Origin: Wolfiporia cocos
Taxonomy: Eukaryota > Basidiomycota > Agaricomycetes > Polyporales > Phaeolaceae
Reading direction: 5' to 3'
Assembly (NCBI GenBank): GCA_029448655.1
Contig: JACCLO010000005.1
Coordinates: 1,054,001-1,118,000 of the forward strand
DNA length: 64,000 bases
In this document: piece after piece, positions 3,019-37,600 of the stretch
Layout: each line of letters begins with the position of its first letter
Numbering within the stretch: position 1 is the stretch's first letter
Translations under genes and position numbers: made by a program
Notes under the pieces: model-generated
Databases searched by the model: none
Told to the model about the DNA's origin: nothing
The model's input: the letters and a program-made list of their open reading frames with translations, nothing else

Positions 3019-3106
3019 TACCCCCAGCGGGACTCGAACCCGCAACCTCCAGATTACCATGAACGCGCATAGAAGTCTGACGTCATAGCCATTAGACAAT
3101 GGGGGC
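3019..3106 (-). tRNA. tRNA-Arg(UCU): tRNA-Arg(UCU) with intron
   Basis: On the minus strand the sequence folds as a tRNA. The acceptor stem GCCCCCA pairs with TGGGGGT. There is a D arm, an anticodon stem TCAGA/TCTGG and a T arm GCGGG-TTCGAGT-CCCGC. The anticodon loop starts CT-TCT-A, giving anticodon UCU (Arg, AGA codons). About 15 extra bases after position 37 are the usual place for a nuclear tRNA intron. The B box GGTTCGAGTCC is intact. It should be a working Pol III gene. Confidence 0.93.
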
Positions 3107-16380: not shown

Positions 16381-17249
16381 GTAGAGTTTCAGTCAACTAT
16401 CTTAATCTGCCAACTGCCCTTCGCTTAAGAAATCGCAGTTGCGAGCTAGGTTTGCACGCAGATTAATCTGCTAGCTGCGGCAGATTAATCTACTGTGACA
16501 ATAAAATGGTACATCTCGGATTCGAACCAAGGACCTTAGCACGGATGAGAATAAAAGCATCGCAGCATCTTCTATAGAAAAGCATCTTGATTAGGCAACT
16601 CCCTAATACGGTAGCCACTGCCCATGGAACCCGCCGACCGAAGCTTGAGGCCCCCGACCCAAGCCTGGAGTTTGTGACTTGTCGCACCTCGGCTACGTCA
16701 CGGTAACTCTACATTTCGTGCGAGAGCACGGGTTATCCAGCTAGTAATTAGCCAACTGAGCCATAGTGATAACAGTTAGCAATGACCAATCAAAATATAT
16801 ATAACGCAAATTCTACACACAATTTCCACAAATCATCAAGGCAACTAACTGCTACAACAAGCATTAAAAAAATCAATGATAGTGGTAGCTTGTTTTACCA
16901 TGCCTGACCTGGAGCAATTCACAATGGGAAAGTTACAGTGGAATCACAGGTCTTTAGAGGCATATTCATTTGTATTTGTGTTATGGAAGATGTTAAACTG
17001 CAAAAATGAAGTTTACAAAATACTCTATATATCGCTTAAAATGGGGCAGACAATAGTTGCACTGTAGCTCAGTTGGCTAATGTATGCTGCGATGCTCTTA
17101 TTCTCATCCGTGCTAAGGTCCTTGGTTTGAATCCGAGATGTACCATTTTATTGTCACAGTAGATTAATCTGCGTGCAAACCTAGCTCACAACTGCGATTT
17201 CTTAAGCGAAGGGCAGTTGGCAGATTAAGATAATTGACTGAAGTCCCTC
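16381..17249. mobile_element. tRNA-arm inverted-repeat element, copy T1
   Basis: The copy is flanked by a perfect 7-bp duplication GTATGTT (16374-16380 and 17250-17256). Ends are GTAGAGTTTCAGTC and GACTGAAGTCCCTC, so it is inverted relative to T2 and T3. Two inverted arms of about 200 bp carry tRNA-like modules. The left arm is split by about 150-170 bp of extra sequence between 16574 and 16745. The right arm lacks a block of about 20 bp present in T2 and T3. No protein is coded, so it must be mobilised by another element or the host. Confidence 0.8.
17057..17143 (+). promoter_or_regulatory. tRNA-like Pol III promoter module, right arm of T1
   Basis: A box TAGCTCAGTTGG at 17065 and B box GGTTTGAATCC at 17124 lie 59 bases apart, followed by TTTT at about 17147. 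This is the layout of a Pol III internal promoter. The cloverleaf is degenerate, so a true tRNA is unlikely. Confidence 0.6.
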
Positions 17250-17697: not shown

Positions 17698-17707
17698 CTC
17701 CCCCTCA
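17698..17707 (-). other. Polypurine tract of the copia element
   Basis: In element sense TGAGGGGGAG directly abuts the 3' LTR start TGTCGTC. This is the expected plus-strand priming site. Confidence 0.75.
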
Positions 17708-17768
17708 GCGCGAACAAGGGAAAGCGGTGAATGAAGGTGAGGTGAATGAAGGTGAAAGGAGGAGAGTA

Positions 17769-20432
17769 CTAACACTCCCCCTGGGATGGAAGACAGAGAC
17801 CCATGCGGTGTCGCAGCGTGAGGAAAGTTTTACGTGGCAGAGGTTTGGTGAACGCATCGGCGAGATTGAAATGGGAGGGAACGTAGCGGACAACGAGAGA
17901 GCGAGAATCGACGAACTCGCGAAGTTGATGCCACTTGATATCAATGTGTTTGACACGCGAGTGTAGTGCAGAGTCCTGAGAGAGCCGAATGCCACCAGTG
18001 CTATCACAGAGGAGAGGGGTAGCCTCCGAGGGAGTGAAAAACAGTTCCGTGAGCAGATGGCGGAGCCATATCGCCTCATGGGAAGCTGCAGACGCGGCAA
18101 CGTACTCAGCTTCAGTAGTGGACGAAGAGACGGTGGCTTGTTTTCGAGCAGACCAGGACACCAGACCAGAGCCGAGGGAGAAGCAGTAGCCGGAGATGGA
18201 GCGACGAGTGTCCAGACACAAGGCATGGCTGGCATCCGAAAAGCCGGAGAGAGCTGCAGCAGGGGTCCCACCAAGAACGAGACGGAGATCGCGAGTACCC
18301 TTAAGATAACGGATGACACGTTTGGCAGCATCCCAGTGCGCACGTCCGTAGCAGTCGAGGAATTGGCTAAGCTGTTGGACGGCGAGTGCAATGTCCGGCC
18401 GAGTACCAATGGCAAGATACATGAGGCAGCCGACCAAAGTGCGGTAAGGGAGGCGGGCAACGCTATCGCGTTCGACATCGGACTTAGGGGAGTGCTCGCG
18501 ACGAGAGAGTCGGAGGCCAGCATCCATGGGGGTACTGACAGGATTAGCATCCTGCATGCAAAATTGGGAGACAAGTCGGTCAATGAGAGCACACTGAGAG
18601 AGAGAAACCTCGCGCGTAGCGCGATTTCGTTCAATGGCGATCCCAATGCAGAACCTGGCCTCACCGAGGTCGGAGATCTGCCACTCCTCCCGAAGCTCGG
18701 CTTTGAATCGGTTAGCGGCTTCCTGGGTAGACGCTCCAAGGAGAAAGTCGTCGACGTGGACACCAGCGATAACAATGCCTTCGTCAGTTCTCCGATAATA
18801 GATGCAGAACTCACAAGACAGGCGCGTGAAACCAAGGCTAGTGAGGCGGGCATGCATTGTCTTATTCCACACTCGGCCACCCTGCTTCATGCCATAGAGC
18901 CCCTTGTGCAACTCCCAGACCCAGTCCTCCTTTCCAGGCTCCGCAAAACCAGGAGGCTGCTCCATATAACAGACTTCATCATCAGGCAAGAGGCCATAAA
19001 GGAAAGCGGTCTTGACATCTAGCTGGTGAATCTCCCAGTCGTTTGCAGCAGCAAGGTGAAGCAAGGCACGGAATGACTCCATACGCATGGTGGGGGAGGA
19101 CGTGTGGTGGTAGTCCTGACCGAAGACTGCCTCATAACCCTTGCAGACCCATCGTGCCTTGAAGCGGACGGGGTTGCCAAGTTCGTCACGCTTAAGACGG
19201 AAGACGGGCCGACCCTTCAGAATACGACGACCAGAGGGGACTTGAGAGCGAGGGACAAGTTTGTAAACATTGAGGTCCCGAATGGATTGAAACTCGTCAA
19301 GGAGGGCACGTCGCCACTGATCAGCGTAGGGGCTCGCAAAGGCTTCACGGAGGGTTGCTGGATCACCAGGGTACGCGGCATCGATAGTCAGCTGCCCGTC
19401 AGCAGAGAGAGCGGCGAGGAGCTCGTCGACTTCCGGAATAGGCGCGAGGGACTGGTTAGGAGGAACTGGAGAGGCAGGACATGAAGCAGGGCATGAGACT
19501 GGGGAAGGAGAAGTGACAGACGAGCGACGGGAGGAGCGGCCAGAGGTAGGTGGAGAGACAGGCGGAGCATCATGCACAGACGCACCAGAGAGGGCACGCA
19601 GACGGGCAGAGCGGCGCAACGGAGGTGGATCGATTGGAGCGGGAGAAGGAATTTGACCTGGAGAGGCAACAGGAGGGTCATCATCAGGGACAGGAGTGGG
19701 AGGTGACGCAGGTTCCAAATTGGCAGCCGGCACTGCAACTGGAACTGGGGCCTCATGGGACTCGATGAATGCAACATGGTACGAGGAGATAACTTTGTGT
19801 GTCGCACAATGATAACAGCGATACGCCTTTGAATGTTGGTCATAGCCAACAAGCACGCATTCAATAGAGCGAGCGTAAATTTTAGGGTTATGATTGTTTT
19901 GAATGAGGACAAAGGCACGCGAGCCAATTTCACGAAGGTGGGACAAGTCCGGGGCGCAGCCATGCCAGAGGTGGTAGGGTGTCTTGCCAACAGGAAGTGA
20001 ACGAGATAAAGTACGGACTGTGAGGTAGTTTGCAGTGAGAAGACACTCGTCCCACCGATTGGGAGGTAGGCAACAGTCAATGCGCATGGCGCGTGCACGG
20101 TTCATGAGGGTGAGGTGGAGACGTTCAACACGTCCATTTTGCGCAGATGTGTATGGGCTGGTCAGTCGCCAGGAGGTTCCGCGTGACGACAGGAAGGATT
20201 TGAAGTCAGCGGAGAGGAGTTCACCATTGTCAATCTGTACTGTACGGACACGCTCCCCTGTCTCCACTTCTCGAGCAGCCACCCATGCCTTGAAGTAGGC
20301 AAGTGCGACAGACTTCGAAGGGATAGGGATGGACCAGGAGTAGGAGGAAAAGTCATCGATTATGTTCAACGCATACATATTGCCAGTAGCGGAACGAACA
20401 TCCTCTGGACCGCACACATCCGCATAGACCAA
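17769..20432 (-). CDS. Copia pol ORF: integrase core, reverse transcriptase, RNase H
   Basis: The 887-codon frame starts inside the integrase domain (ADVCGPEDVRS, then a DDE core with VQIDNGE and SPYTSAQNGRVERLH). A Pro/Ser-rich linker and the RT palm follow (HQLDVKTAFLYGLL, and VHVDDFL where YVDD-like catalytic aspartates sit). RNase H follows (SGFSDASHA and SSTTEAEYVAAS), ending ADAFTKPLP as in most copia elements. It overlaps the gag frame by 67 bases and is one frame away. It has no ATG context of its own, so it is expressed by frameshift or the break is a mutation. Confidence 0.95.
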   Translation of the reverse strand: MVYADVCGPEDVRSATGNMYALNIIDDFSSYSWSIPIPSKSVALAYFKAWVAAREVETGERVRTVQIDNGELLSADFKSFLSSRGTSWRLTSPYTSAQNGRVERLHLTLMNRARAMRIDCCLPPNRWDECLLTANYLTVRTLSRSLPVGKTPYHLWHGCAPDLSHLREIGSRAFVLIQNNHNPKIYARSIECVLVGYDQHSKAYRCYHCATHKVISSYHVAFIESHEAPVPVAVPAANLEPASPPTPVPDDDPPVASPGQIPSPAPIDPPPLRRSARLRALSGASVHDAPPVSPPTSGRSSRRSSVTSPSPVSCPASCPASPVPPNQSLAPIPEVDELLAALSADGQLTIDAAYPGDPATLREAFASPYADQWRRALLDEFQSIRDLNVYKLVPRSQVPSGRRILKGRPVFRLKRDELGNPVRFKARWVCKGYEAVFGQDYHHTSSPTMRMESFRALLHLAAANDWEIHQLDVKTAFLYGLLPDDEVCYMEQPPGFAEPGKEDWVWELHKGLYGMKQGGRVWNKTMHARLTSLGFTRLSCEFCIYYRRTDEGIVIAGVHVDDFLLGASTQEAANRFKAELREEWQISDLGEARFCIGIAIERNRATREVSLSQCALIDRLVSQFCMQDANPVSTPMDAGLRLSRREHSPKSDVERDSVARLPYRTLVGCLMYLAIGTRPDIALAVQQLSQFLDCYGRAHWDAAKRVIRYLKGTRDLRLVLGGTPAAALSGFSDASHALCLDTRRSISGYCFSLGSGLVSWSARKQATVSSSTTEAEYVAASAASHEAIWLRHLLTELFFTPSEATPLLCDSTGGIRLSQDSALHSRVKHIDIKWHQLREFVDSRSLVVRYVPSHFNLADAFTKPLPRKTFLTLRHRMGLCLPSQGEC

Positions 20433-22288
20433 CTCCAGACGTCGAGAAGAGCGAGGGCCAGCACCTTTTTAGGAACTGATGAACGTGTCTGTTTCCCCAG
20501 AATGCAGCAGTCACATTTTGGTGGGGCGACAGAAAAGTCGGAGGGCTTACCCGGGATAACACCTGCACGGACCATGTCGTGGACGGTGCGATAGTTGACA
20601 TGGCCGAGACGACGATGCCAGGTCGAGAGAGAGACCTGGCGGGCGGAGAACAAAGCGTGTTCAGCAGGCGGCGAGGCTCCATTTAGAGAATAAAGATGCC
20701 GGGCAGATAGCGAGCCAGAGGCAATGAGCGAGCCACTACGACGCAAGAGACGGACCGAAGAGTCATCAAAGACAATCTGGGGGCGAAGCGATGAACGACA
20801 CAGAGCAGAGATGGAGATGAGCCGAACAGTGGCTTGTGGGACAAAGAGAACATCATCCAGGGTGAGGTGGTTTCCCTTTCCTAGGGCGAGTCGGATGCGA
20901 CCGATGCCATGAGCATGTATGACGGACCCATTTATACCACGTATACCACGAGGGGCAATGGGGCGTAGCTCAAAGAAGTCCGATCTAGATGGGCTAATGT
21001 GGGCCGATGCACCGGAGTCGAAGTAGAAGGGCGCAGACCCAGTGGTAGGAACGCGTCGAAGGCCAGAGGGAAGAGGTGTTGCAGCATAGGCGGAAGGATC
21101 GGTGAGTGCTTGTGAGTGTGCAGCCCAGTCAAGGGAGACAGAAACATCCTCGAGCAACATGGTGTCATACTCGAAGTTGTCGGCTGCAGAGCAAACGGAG
21201 TCGAGCCATGCGGGTTCAACATCGGCAGCTACGCCTGCAAGCTCTGAGGTACCTGAGCAGGGAGGCTCAGCAGCGAGATATACTACCGCGCCAGAGGAGT
21301 CAACAATGAAGGCACGGCCTTGGTTGTCTGTGTACTTCTTGGGCTCGGTCCCCGTGCGGGGGCGATTCCGTTCACGCTTAGCACGTTTAGCAGCCAGTAC
21401 TTCATCACGGCGGCCCTCCATCACGCCGCCTGGTTGAAAACAGTCTGAAGCAGAGTGCCCAGAGCGTTTGCAGTTGGCGCACACCATTTTGGCAGTGCCA
21501 GACGAGGGAGCCTTAGCGATAAGGACATCAGACGTAGCAACCTTTGCACCGTCAATGAGTTGTTGCTCAAGGTCCAGGCGCCGAATGATATCATTTGGCT
21601 TCAAGTCCTGGGGATTTGCTGCGAAGGCCGAGCCAATCTGAGACTGAAGGTGCTCGAACTCGCCGGACATTGCATGTAGGAGACTGATAGTGACAAACGT
21701 CTCGTGTGTCGGAATTCCTATCCGGAACACCTTGTCGACAAGGTCCTGAATTTTTGTAGTCACCTCCGCAAGCCGCTCCGAACGCGAGTATCGAACCGAG
21801 AATAGTTCCATGATATATCGGACCTGGGCATATGGGCCCTCCTTCTCGTGACGTGTGCAGAGGGCAGTCCATGCCTTTGCAGCAGTTGCTGAGGTCGATG
21901 TCGAGGTACCGTCAACGTACGGTTCAAGGAACTTTGCCTCTTCGGGGCTACATTTCATAGCCAAGAAGCTGCATGTGACGCGATTGTTGTCCACCCAGTT
22001 CTGGAAAGCAATGGGTTCCGTCGTAGCATTTGGAGCGAAGACGGTGCCGAGGAGATACTTGTCTAGACGACTCATGCTCAGCGACTGCAGAATGTACCGG
22101 CGCCACTCAGACCAGTTCCCTTTGCCACGATCGAGAGTGATACCACCAGTCAAGAAGGCGTTTGCTGGGGTGAGCGGCTGGACTGATGGTGCAGATGATG
22201 AGGATATGCTAGGAGCAACCACAGAAGGGCCTGAAGCCTTTGAGGAGGCCTTCGAGCCAGATGGAGAAGGGGGTGTCGACTTCGTCAT
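20366..22288 (-). CDS. Copia gag-protease-integrase zinc region ORF
   Basis: The frame of 640 codons starts at MTKSTPPSPSGSK. It has a gag domain of the UBN2/copia kind (about residues 50-250), a CCHC zinc knuckle CANCKRSGHSASDC near residue 270 that binds RNA, a retroviral-type protease motif YFDSGASAHIS near residue 430, and the GAG-pre-integrase HHCC finger (WHRRLGHVN, then CDCCILGK). The frame is then lost at a run of five A residues (20466-20470), where the pol frame takes over. Confidence 0.95.
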   Translation of the reverse strand: MTKSTPPSPSGSKASSKASGPSVVAPSISSSSAPSVQPLTPANAFLTGGITLDRGKGNWSEWRRYILQSLSMSRLDKYLLGTVFAPNATTEPIAFQNWVDNNRVTCSFLAMKCSPEEAKFLEPYVDGTSTSTSATAAKAWTALCTRHEKEGPYAQVRYIMELFSVRYSRSERLAEVTTKIQDLVDKVFRIGIPTHETFVTISLLHAMSGEFEHLQSQIGSAFAANPQDLKPNDIIRRLDLEQQLIDGAKVATSDVLIAKAPSSGTAKMVCANCKRSGHSASDCFQPGGVMEGRRDEVLAAKRAKRERNRPRTGTEPKKYTDNQGRAFIVDSSGAVVYLAAEPPCSGTSELAGVAADVEPAWLDSVCSAADNFEYDTMLLEDVSVSLDWAAHSQALTDPSAYAATPLPSGLRRVPTTGSAPFYFDSGASAHISPSRSDFFELRPIAPRGIRGINGSVIHAHGIGRIRLALGKGNHLTLDDVLFVPQATVRLISISALCRSSLRPQIVFDDSSVRLLRRSGSLIASGSLSARHLYSLNGASPPAEHALFSARQVSLSTWHRRLGHVNYRTVHDMVRAGVIPGKPSDFSVAPPKCDCCILGKQTRSSVPKKVLALALLDVWSWSMRMCAVQRMFVPLLAICMR

Positions 22289-22444
22289 ATTGATACGGTC
22301 GAACTGAGTGCACGTGACTACGTGCAGAAGGAGAAGACACGACTATATGCGCGGTGGACGCACTTCTATGGGCGTTTTGCACCACCTAAAAGCTTGGCTC
22401 TAGATTCAGTGTTTCGTGGGCTCAGTCTGCCGGGACTGGAACCC

Positions 22445-35222: not shown

Positions 35223-35719
35223 CATCGCGCTGTGAGCTGCAACAGGGGTTGCACTTATTGGGTCCGCAGGAAGGTCATGTTGTCTTACTCATGATTATTG
35301 TGTAGGCCAGGTGCGTGGATGAAGATCATTGAACCTGCAAGGCAGGGGATAGGGATAGCGAGTGGCTCTCCATTGCTCGAAGGTGTTGTGTGCACCGTAT
35401 CCGTCTCAGTATGCTTCTCCAGTACACTGATACGTGAATTAAATGCCTGGGCGAAGGAGACCAGAACGTACCGTAAGATGCATACGCAGTGTCTCCAGGA
35501 GATGCTGTGGCATAAGCACAATCAGTATGAGCAAGGTAACATGGGGCCCGACAATCTTACGCTGAGGTTAAATGACCCATGTCATTGTGAGGGACTTCAG
35601 TCAATTATTCTAATCTGCCAACTGCCCTTCGCTTAAGAAATAGCAGTTGCGAGCTAGGTTTGCACGCAGATTAATCTGCTAGCTGCGGCAGATTAATCTA
35701 CTGTGACAATAAAATGGTA

Positions 35720-35802
35720 CATTCAGGATTCGAACCAAGGACCTTAGCACAGATGAGAATAAGAGCATCGCAGCATACATTAGCCAACTGAGCTACAGTG
35801 CA
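35720..35802 (-). promoter_or_regulatory. tRNA-like Pol III promoter module, left arm of T2
   Basis: On the minus strand the A box is TAGCTCAGTTGG (35784-35795) and the B box GGTTCGAATCC (35726-35736), both at consensus, followed by TTTT near 35711-35714. It reads leftward, out of the element. Confidence 0.65.
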
Positions 35803-36091
35803 ACTAGTGTCTGCACCATTTTAAGCAATATATAGAGTATTTTGTAAACTTCATTTTCACAGTTTAACATCTTCCATAACACAAATACAAATGAATCTGC
35901 CTCTAAAGACCTGTGATTCCAGTGTATTCAGCTTTCTCATGGTGAGTTGCTCCAGGTCAAGCATGGTAAATCAAGCCACCACTATCATTGATTTCTTTAT
36001 GCTTGTTGTAGCAGTTAGTTGCCTTGATGATTTGCGGAAATTGTGTGTAAAATTTGCGTTATATATATTTTGATTGTTCAAGGGTAACTGT

Positions 36092-36178
36092 TGCTACTAT
36101 GGCTCAGTTGGCTAATTACGCTGCGATGCTGTTATTCTCATCTGTGCTAAGGTCCTTGGTTCGAATCCTGAATGTACC
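36092..36178 (+). promoter_or_regulatory. tRNA-like Pol III promoter module, right arm of T2
   Basis: A box TGGCTCAGTTGG (36100-36111) and B box GGTTCGAATCC (36158-36168) match the eukaryotic consensus. It reads rightward, out of the element, so the two modules of T2 diverge. Confidence 0.65.
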
Positions 36179-36794
36179 ATTTCATTGTCACAGTAGATTA
36201 ATCTGCCGCAGCTAGCAGATTAATCTGCGTGCAAACCTAGCTCGCAACTGCTATTTCTTAAGCGAAGGGCAGTTGGCAGATTAAGATAATTGACTGAAAC
36301 TCTATTCGTTGTATGACCATCCAGCAAAGTACGCAGTGAGTACATACGCCACTCAAAAGGTCTGTTCAAGCTGCAGATGCATCGGCAGTCTCCCAGGAGT
36401 ATGCTCTCGATACGTTGGAACACTGCTTGTCCTGCAGCATCGATAAGAGAGGCGAACATGTGAGTGAACTTGACGTTGTCTGAAGCAAGGATTGTGCCTC
36501 AATACGGACGAGGAATATTCGGTGCGTATCATCAAAAAGTATTGACATCTGAATGCTCAAGACGTACAGATAGATAGACTCCTACCTGCTAGCAGAAAGG
36601 CGAATTTGTTTCTCATCAGTTCACCGTCGCTGATGCCGAGCCTCCTGAGTGGTCTTCATCATTCGCGAGGGACTTCAGTCAATTATCTTAATCTGCCAAC
36701 TGCCCTTCGCTTAAGAAATCGCAGTTGCGAGCTAGGTTTGCACGCAGATTAATCTGCTAACTGCGGCAGATTAATCTACTGTGACAATAAAATG

Positions 36795-36878
36795 GCACAT
36801 CCCGGATTCGAACCAAGGACCTTAGCACAGATGAGAATAACAGCATCGCAGCATAATTAGCCAACTGAGCTACAGTGC
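36795..36878 (-). promoter_or_regulatory. tRNA-like Pol III promoter module, left arm of T3
   Basis: On the minus strand it has TAGCTCAGTTGG and GGTTCGAATCC with a T-stem-like pairing CTTGG/CCGGG. The acceptor pairing is only about four base pairs, so this is tRNA-derived rather than a tRNA. Confidence 0.65.
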
Positions 36879-37168
36879 AACTGGTCTTGCCCCCATTTTA
36901 AGCAATATATAGAGTATTTTGTAAACTTCATTTTCGCAGTTTAACATCTTCCATAACACAAATACAAATGAATCTGCCTCTAAAGACCTGTGATTCCAGT
37001 GTATTCAGCTTTCCCATGGTGAGTTGCTCCAGGTCAAGCATGGTAAATCAAGCTACCACTATCATTGATTTCTGTATGCTTGTTGGAGCAGTTAGTTGCC
37101 TTGATGATTTGCGAAAATTGTGTGTAAAATTTGCGTTATATATATTTTAATTGGTCAATGGTACCTGT

Positions 37169-37256
37169 TGCTGCAATGGCTCAGTTGGCTAATTATGCTG
37201 CAATGCTGTTATTCTCATCTGTGCTAAGGTCCTTGGTTCGAATCCGGGATGTGCCA
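37169..37256 (+). promoter_or_regulatory. tRNA-like Pol III promoter module, right arm of T3
   Basis: A box TGGCTCAGTTGG (37177-37188), B box GGTTCGAATCC (37235-37245), then TTTT at 37257-37260 as a possible Pol III terminator. Confidence 0.65.
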
Positions 37257-37600
37257 TTTTATTGTCACAGTAGATTAATCTGCCGCAGTTAGCAGATTAA
37301 TCTGCGTGCAAACCTAGCTCGCAACTGCGATTTCTTAAGCGAAGGGCAGTTGGCAGATTAAGATAATTGACTGAAACTCTACCATTCGCCCTCCCTAAGC
37401 AGTGTCATGCTGCGGCGCAGATCTCGGCTAATCAGTACATTTCAGGACGTTGAAATGCGGCTATCTGCCAAGGGCACCTTCGTCTTGAGGATAATGAAGC
37501 GGATCAGGAGACTTCTGAGGGTGGTAGAATCTACAAGTATGCACTCCAAAGCATTCAGTGAGATGGTATAGAATATAGCAATTAGTACATTACAGCACTA

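Follow-up and report, generated by a model that had tools for sequence, protein, structure and literature searches.

A Non-Autonomous Inverted-Repeat Transposon Family of Wolfiporia cocos Whose Two Arms Carry Pol III-Type Promoter Motifs

Known elements of comparable build

Internal promoters for RNA polymerase III (Pol III) are usually regarded as a trait of retroposons, with RNA being the intermediate, and Pol III boxes are a trait of SINEs. Mutator elements (MULEs), in turn, leave target duplications of 9–11 bp. The family described here is represented by three copies, T1, T2 and T3, in a 64,000-nucleotide stretch of the Wolfiporia cocos genome, the whole of which is termed "the window". 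It resembles SINEs in its internal Pol III promoter, which is recognised by motif only, but has a fixed 7-bp duplication and terminal inverted repeats (TIRs) where SINEs have variable-length duplications, a 3' tail and no TIRs; the 7-bp length also sets it apart from Mutator. With MITEs and other non-autonomous TIR DNA transposons it shares TIRs, a duplication of fixed length and hundreds of similar copies in which no coding capacity was seen; unlike in MITEs, its arms of about 215–245 bp each hold Pol III promoter motifs.

Several described elements come close in one respect or another. Dada transposons, as characterised in the accessible part of PMC3706591, have no TIRs, insert into small RNA genes and produce 6–7 bp duplications. 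The duplication length, which had led the first-pass annotation to mention Dada, and the tie to tRNA-type sequence are points of likeness, but the 19-bp TIRs and dispersed insertion sites of the present family speak against that assignment. Galileo, a member of the P superfamily in Drosophila, shares the 7-bp duplication, the long inverted arms and a middle part found in both orientations, while the duplication consensus GTAGTAC given in the available portion of its description (PMC2775673) is not seen here. Two further systems appear in the sections of PMC12730594 at hand. hAT7 of rust fungi represents fungal DNA transposons with 7-bp duplications, and hAT domains occur in the W. cocos genome, but no hAT gene was found joined to the family ends among those listed. 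Kyakuja (KDZ) likewise has a 7-bp duplication and is known in Polyporales, and KDZ matches are present in the genome, but its termini are CA..TG without TIRs, as opposed to GAGGG/GTAGAG termini with TIRs. Finally, Cassandra, Helenus and Ajax, as far as they are covered by the accessible part of PMC10886601, are non-autonomous and carry small-RNA-gene sequence in their terminal repeats; these are LTR retrotransposons with direct repeats, whereas the present family is a TIR DNA transposon. Judged by predicted function, they are the nearest analogy.

The first-pass annotation had called the family undescribed-looking and its mix of features one that fits no class it knew; the former agrees with our searches of the open-licence literature, which returned no DNA transposon with a Pol III promoter in each long arm, and "undescribed" is to be read within the scope of these searches. 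For the assembly of Wolfiporia hoelen SS20, the table in the part of PMC9503964 at hand contains 8,620 MITE copies, all of them entered as "Unknown".

Copies, ends and insertion mode

T1, T2 and T3 do belong to a single, genuine family and lie where the first-pass annotation had placed them:

16381..17249, minus strand: T2, 869-bp copy whose right module carries an insertion between its boxes A and B; perfect duplication GTATGTT
35589..36305, plus strand: T1, complete copy, 717 bp
36667..37382, plus strand: T3, complete copy, 716 bp

Each of the two end words is present exactly three times in the window, against 0.01 and 0.03 occurrences expected. The termini are shared, as had been stated, but the right end had been quoted one base too short; followed from the outside inwards, its sequence is GTAGAGTTTCAGTCAATTA (ATAGAG in T1), and the TIR is therefore 19 bp long, with two unequal ends beginning GAGGGAC and GTAGAG. 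In the 64.4-Mb genome, an 18-base end word has 225 forward and 234 reverse occurrences (at most two mismatches), while the reversed control gave one occurrence. As written, this word fits the GAGGGAC end, so about 459 GAGGGAC-type ends exist genome-wide, from which we infer some 450 copies, or roughly 0.5% of the genome (459 × 717 bases). Among the first 30 of these ends in contig order (L009–L038), 27 lie in copies of about 700–720 bp; L011 is shortened, L015 is interrupted and L037 is a solo end. Out of 49 end pairs, 42 copies of 690–730 bp entered a consensus of 717 bp, to which they are on average 96.1% identical; left out were one chance pairing (L010_312), those that were too long (L015, L041, L042 and T2) and the subfamily B members L083 and L084.

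The target duplications of T1, T2 and T3 proved to be as claimed, namely TCATTGT/TCGTTGT (6/7), GTATGTT and CATTCGC; those of T1 and T3 are located as follows:

35582..35588, plus strand: T1 left target duplication, TCATTGT
36306..36312, plus strand: T1 right target duplication, TCGTTGT (6/7)
36660..36666, plus strand: T3 left target duplication, CATTCGC
37383..37389, plus strand: T3 right target duplication, CATTCGC

The 7-bp duplication is consistent across copies, being perfect in 33/49 end pairs and correct at six or more of the seven bases in 38/49, compared with 3/2352 perfect 7-mers when flanks were paired across copies; three other end pairs (L008, L015 and L041) show a perfect 8-mer. 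The duplications (n = 38) are diverse and the insertion sites dispersed, with G scarce at the third position and A at the last (2/38 each) and nothing else notable in their composition. Empty sites were also recovered: once the flanks are joined and one 7-mer is removed, they align with uninterrupted relatives along the full 300 bases. The alignments of L009/L068, L014/window 30597 and L042/L046 are free of gaps, and that of L005/L015 contains one.

These data bear on two alternative origins. Fold-back rearrangement without transposition, which the first-pass annotation had itself raised, is favoured by one locus, L083, an inverted duplication that includes the flanks, but given dispersed copies with duplications and empty sites of their own, the probability that the family as a whole arose in this way is negligible. 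The same empty sites, gap-free as they are, together with fixed 7-bp duplications and 19-bp inverted ends, make two head-to-head SINEs or another retroposed (class I) pair very improbable, even though Pol III boxes are what such a pair would bring along; no A-rich tail was seen in the copies. The family behaves as a non-autonomous long-TIR DNA transposon, a MITE in the broad sense.

A long coding relative with the same termini, the expected source of a transposase, was not found in the genome among the ends listed. A pattern designed to find end motifs not followed by the arm, which by design catches about half of such ends, gave 10 places, against 9 in the control. P-type transposase had no match in the genome, its profile being without a match in any control genome as well. 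By eye, none of the 62 MULE matches of the genome lies between family ends among those listed, and the 129 KDZ matches yielded no partner there either. For hAT (48 matches), two apparently joined places were rejected, and comparing the rest by eye with the ends listed gave no partner.

Several candidate loci were dismissed individually. The solo end L037 (C2:852506) adjoins a hAT gene, but relatives match in separate blocks only (15–158, 153 or 195–396, and 395 onward), so the gene is a neighbour and not a partner. At C3:1661235-1665792, the ends stand 4.6 kb apart around a hAT domain; as read from the two outer 470-base pieces, this copy belongs to subfamily A, and nested in its left arm is another element, which starts CAGGGTTG. 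L082, where 9.2 kb separate two family ends, is a B copy split by solo LTRs and other inserts, and three frames in it are without a Pfam family above the cut-off. L085 and L086 have similar end words and nothing in common by blastn.

The searches also brought up repeats of other kinds. MULE matches cluster at one score (44/62 at 40.1 bits), nearly all on small contigs (C21–C74), as if one element were present in many copies of the same repeat block. Eight KDZ matches are near-equal at 251.5–254.3 bits (C1:4630026, C2:2133193, C23:1456533, C23:4165637, C76:2908966, C6:191420, C12:1986554 and C23:1506067), perhaps reflecting a recent burst. A frequent repeat, about 710 bp long and probably a solo LTR, is found in the window at about 24473, 26294 and 30597, in L082 (6797–7504 and 8008–8720) and in L047 (6182–6889), where a gag-like frame follows; one copy is that which served as the empty site for L014. 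Beside T2, long frames resembling a Copia-type polyprotein were seen by eye (window 17705–22342, minus strand).

Arm architecture and Pol III-type modules

Long inverted arms around a core had been proposed and are indeed present. From the outer to the inner side, each arm consists of the 19-bp TIR, about 100 bp with repeated AGATTAATCT motifs, TTTT (T4), box B and box A; a TATATA element stands at the edge of the core, and both predicted type-2 Pol III units face outward. The boxes and the T4 were chosen by the Pol III consensus. In T1 and T3, they are placed as follows:

35711..35714, minus strand: T1 left arm T4 terminator
35726..35736, minus strand: T1 left arm box B
35784..35795, minus strand: T1 left arm box A
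35829..35834, minus strand: T1 left TATATA, 39 nt before box A
36060..36065, plus strand: T1 right TATATA, 40 nt before box A
36100..36111, plus strand: T1 right arm box A
36158..36168, plus strand: T1 right arm box B, without TTTT at +11
36789..36792, minus strand: T3 left arm T4 terminator
36804..36814, minus strand: T3 left arm box B
36861..36872, minus strand: T3 left arm box A
36906..36911, minus strand: T3 left TATATA, 39 nt before box A
37137..37142, plus strand: T3 right TATATA, 40 nt before box A
37177..37188, plus strand: T3 right arm box A
37235..37245, plus strand: T3 right arm box B
37257..37260, plus strand: T3 right arm T4 terminator

This order and spacing recur throughout the family. 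With at most one mismatch, box A is found in 82/84 modules and box B in 70/84; the two are 58–60 nt apart in 83/84, T4 follows box B by 11 nt in 81/84, and TATATA precedes box A by 39–40 nt in 78/84 and by 38 or 41 nt in four more. A strict A-box/B-box pattern occurs four times in the window, always in T1 or T3, and 99/100 Markov-1 shuffles of the window lack it. Over the window and the fetched loci, it has 75 occurrences inside the family, with overlapping loci counted repeatedly, and a single one in the 311,794 bases outside it (tRNA loci left out). We are close to certain that the family consists of non-autonomous TIR elements and that both of their arms carry Pol III-type promoter motifs.

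The first-pass description of each arm as holding a "tRNA-like module" holds for the promoter, boxes A and B being present, but the module does not score as a tRNA. ARAGORN called no tRNA in the T1 and T3 modules or elsewhere in the window, and Rfam gave none in the T1–T3 region at E up to 1 nor in L083 and L084 at E up to 10; "tRNA-like" therefore applies to the promoter alone and not to a tRNA fold. When aligned with 41 real tRNAs of the genome (40 of its 49 genome matches and one in the window), the subfamily A modules reach 61.25 and 61.75, the respective maxima among shuffles being 53.5 and 53.0, with the best matches to intron-containing tRNA-Tyr and tRNA-Ile; of the subfamily B modules, L082 (59.0) is above and L083 (50.0) below the respective shuffle maxima of 52.2 and 53.8. 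No single tRNA ancestor stands out among the 41 aligned. In the predicted transcripts of 12 modules, no conserved or unusual fold was found (z from −1.5 to 0.5).

Arms of the same copy agree at 0.949, compared with 0.930 between copies, a value not reached in any of 20,000 permutations, and the column pairs 94/624, 130/588 and 137/581 agree in 97–98% of copies, where 50–62% is expected. Judged by these alignments, each copy has its two arms homogenised. In 10/42 copies, the core is found in the opposite orientation; the inverted cores are scattered on the core tree (8 changes; shuffled mean 9.2, with 82/500 shuffles as low), strongly supported branches of which force at least two orientation changes. 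Such a pattern is what one would expect from repeated inversion between the arms. The core of the five B copies has the minority orientation of A. Despite the homogenised arms, 46/49 end pairs combine one GAGGGAC-type and one GTAGAG-type end. All 38 pairs with a duplication of at least 6/7 have unequal ends, and the three equal-end pairs are without a good duplication, which suggests that the transposase needs unequal ends, the numbers being small and the comparison made after looking.

Promoter conservation between subfamilies and its possible meaning

With L084 as query, 19 places at least 78% identical over the main match were recognised as subfamily B (by eye, among 40 candidates scored). 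The comparison rests on five copies, which share 69–71% identity with the A consensus; among these copies, L084, L127 and L128 are 92–96% alike. Perfect 7-bp duplications were seen by eye in L084, L127 and L130. As a separate observation, L083 1–1299 (C9:267464-268762) is a palindrome in which a B copy and its flanks are repeated in inverted orientation on the opposite side, and C16:114737-115995 has the same spacing and scores.

Agreement of B with the A consensus (left/right arm) is high for box B (0.92/0.89), box A (0.83/0.86), T4 (0.85/0.88) and TATA (0.78/0.70), and low for the inter-box stretch (0.57/0.57), the acceptor part (0.44/0.50) and the TATA-to-box A interval (0.29/0.47), with 0.63 for the core. 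Taken together, promoter columns agree at 0.865 (n = 74) and other module columns at 0.538 (n = 157), the TATA having been added to the mask after looking and the left and right arms not being independent. The observed value was reached by no slid mask (0/353 right, 0/352 left; without TATA 0/394 and 0/392) and by none of 20,000 random placements (maximum 0.818). From this difference, it is more likely than not that the lineages which spread maintained their promoters, and the conserved part resembles a promoter and not an RNA. T4 is kept no better than the adjoining outer arm (0.85/0.83), and a core segment that starts at 391 and has no known role reaches 0.98, above every box.

Starting from the insertion mode, the architecture, the conservation of promoter columns relative to their surroundings, the homogenised arms and the inverted cores, all of which are read directly from the sequence, we lean slightly towards a non-autonomous DNA transposon that is mobilised in trans and whose promoters were kept, by way of Pol III factors or transcription, through selection among spreading copies. 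A transposase supplied by another element would move the family, making 7-bp duplications and seemingly requiring two unequal 19-bp ends. Each arm would be a short Pol III unit pointing outward and transcribed by Pol III, and the binding of Pol III factors or transcription itself may keep the element open to the transposase or shield it from silencing and thus help it to spread, which would be why the promoters were kept; the RNA product seems not to matter. More tentatively, one may think of a class II transposon that spread through its own pair of outward Pol III promoters, with TFIIIC/TFIIIB occupancy or transcription, and not the RNA, making a copy a better substrate or protecting it from silencing.

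It is possible, if rather unlikely, that the boxes are passengers: one arm of an ancestor would have captured a piece of a tRNA or SINE, which would then have been copied into the other arm, and the boxes would have had no role in the spread. Arm-to-arm homogenisation does exist, subfamily A taken alone shows no visibly stronger preservation of the boxes than of the remaining element, and by a simple intactness rule both modules pass in 30/42 copies, the other 12 failing it; against this stand the far better preservation of the boxes than of the surrounding module between subfamilies and their fixed spacing from TATA and T4. The equally well-kept outer arm indicates that arm sequence is under some kind of constraint and would agree with the A-box/B-box stretches being binding sites of the transposase or of another DNA-binding protein that merely resemble Pol III boxes. 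We consider this improbable, as TATA, A, B and T4 stand in Pol III-like order and spacing in both arms and the strict A–B motif is nearly absent outside the family.

If the favoured reading of trans-mobilised copies with selected promoters is true, promoter use by a cut-and-paste element would be a surprising trait, in which the promoter's own effect (factor binding, open chromatin or a barrier) could be separated from a requirement for RNA. On the more tentative reading, the family would be a DNA-transposon counterpart of Cassandra-like elements, with unequal ends persisting despite repeated arm homogenisation. Its hundreds of similar copies with graded box damage allow Pol III occupancy, methylation and copy age to be compared. 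For annotation, motif-based procedures can misfile such a family as SINEs or tRNA pseudogenes. The window also contains a real tRNA gene at 3019–3106 (minus strand), which ARAGORN, run on the excised piece, reads as tRNA-Thr (GGT) with a 15-nt intron and to which Rfam assigns 53.6 bits.
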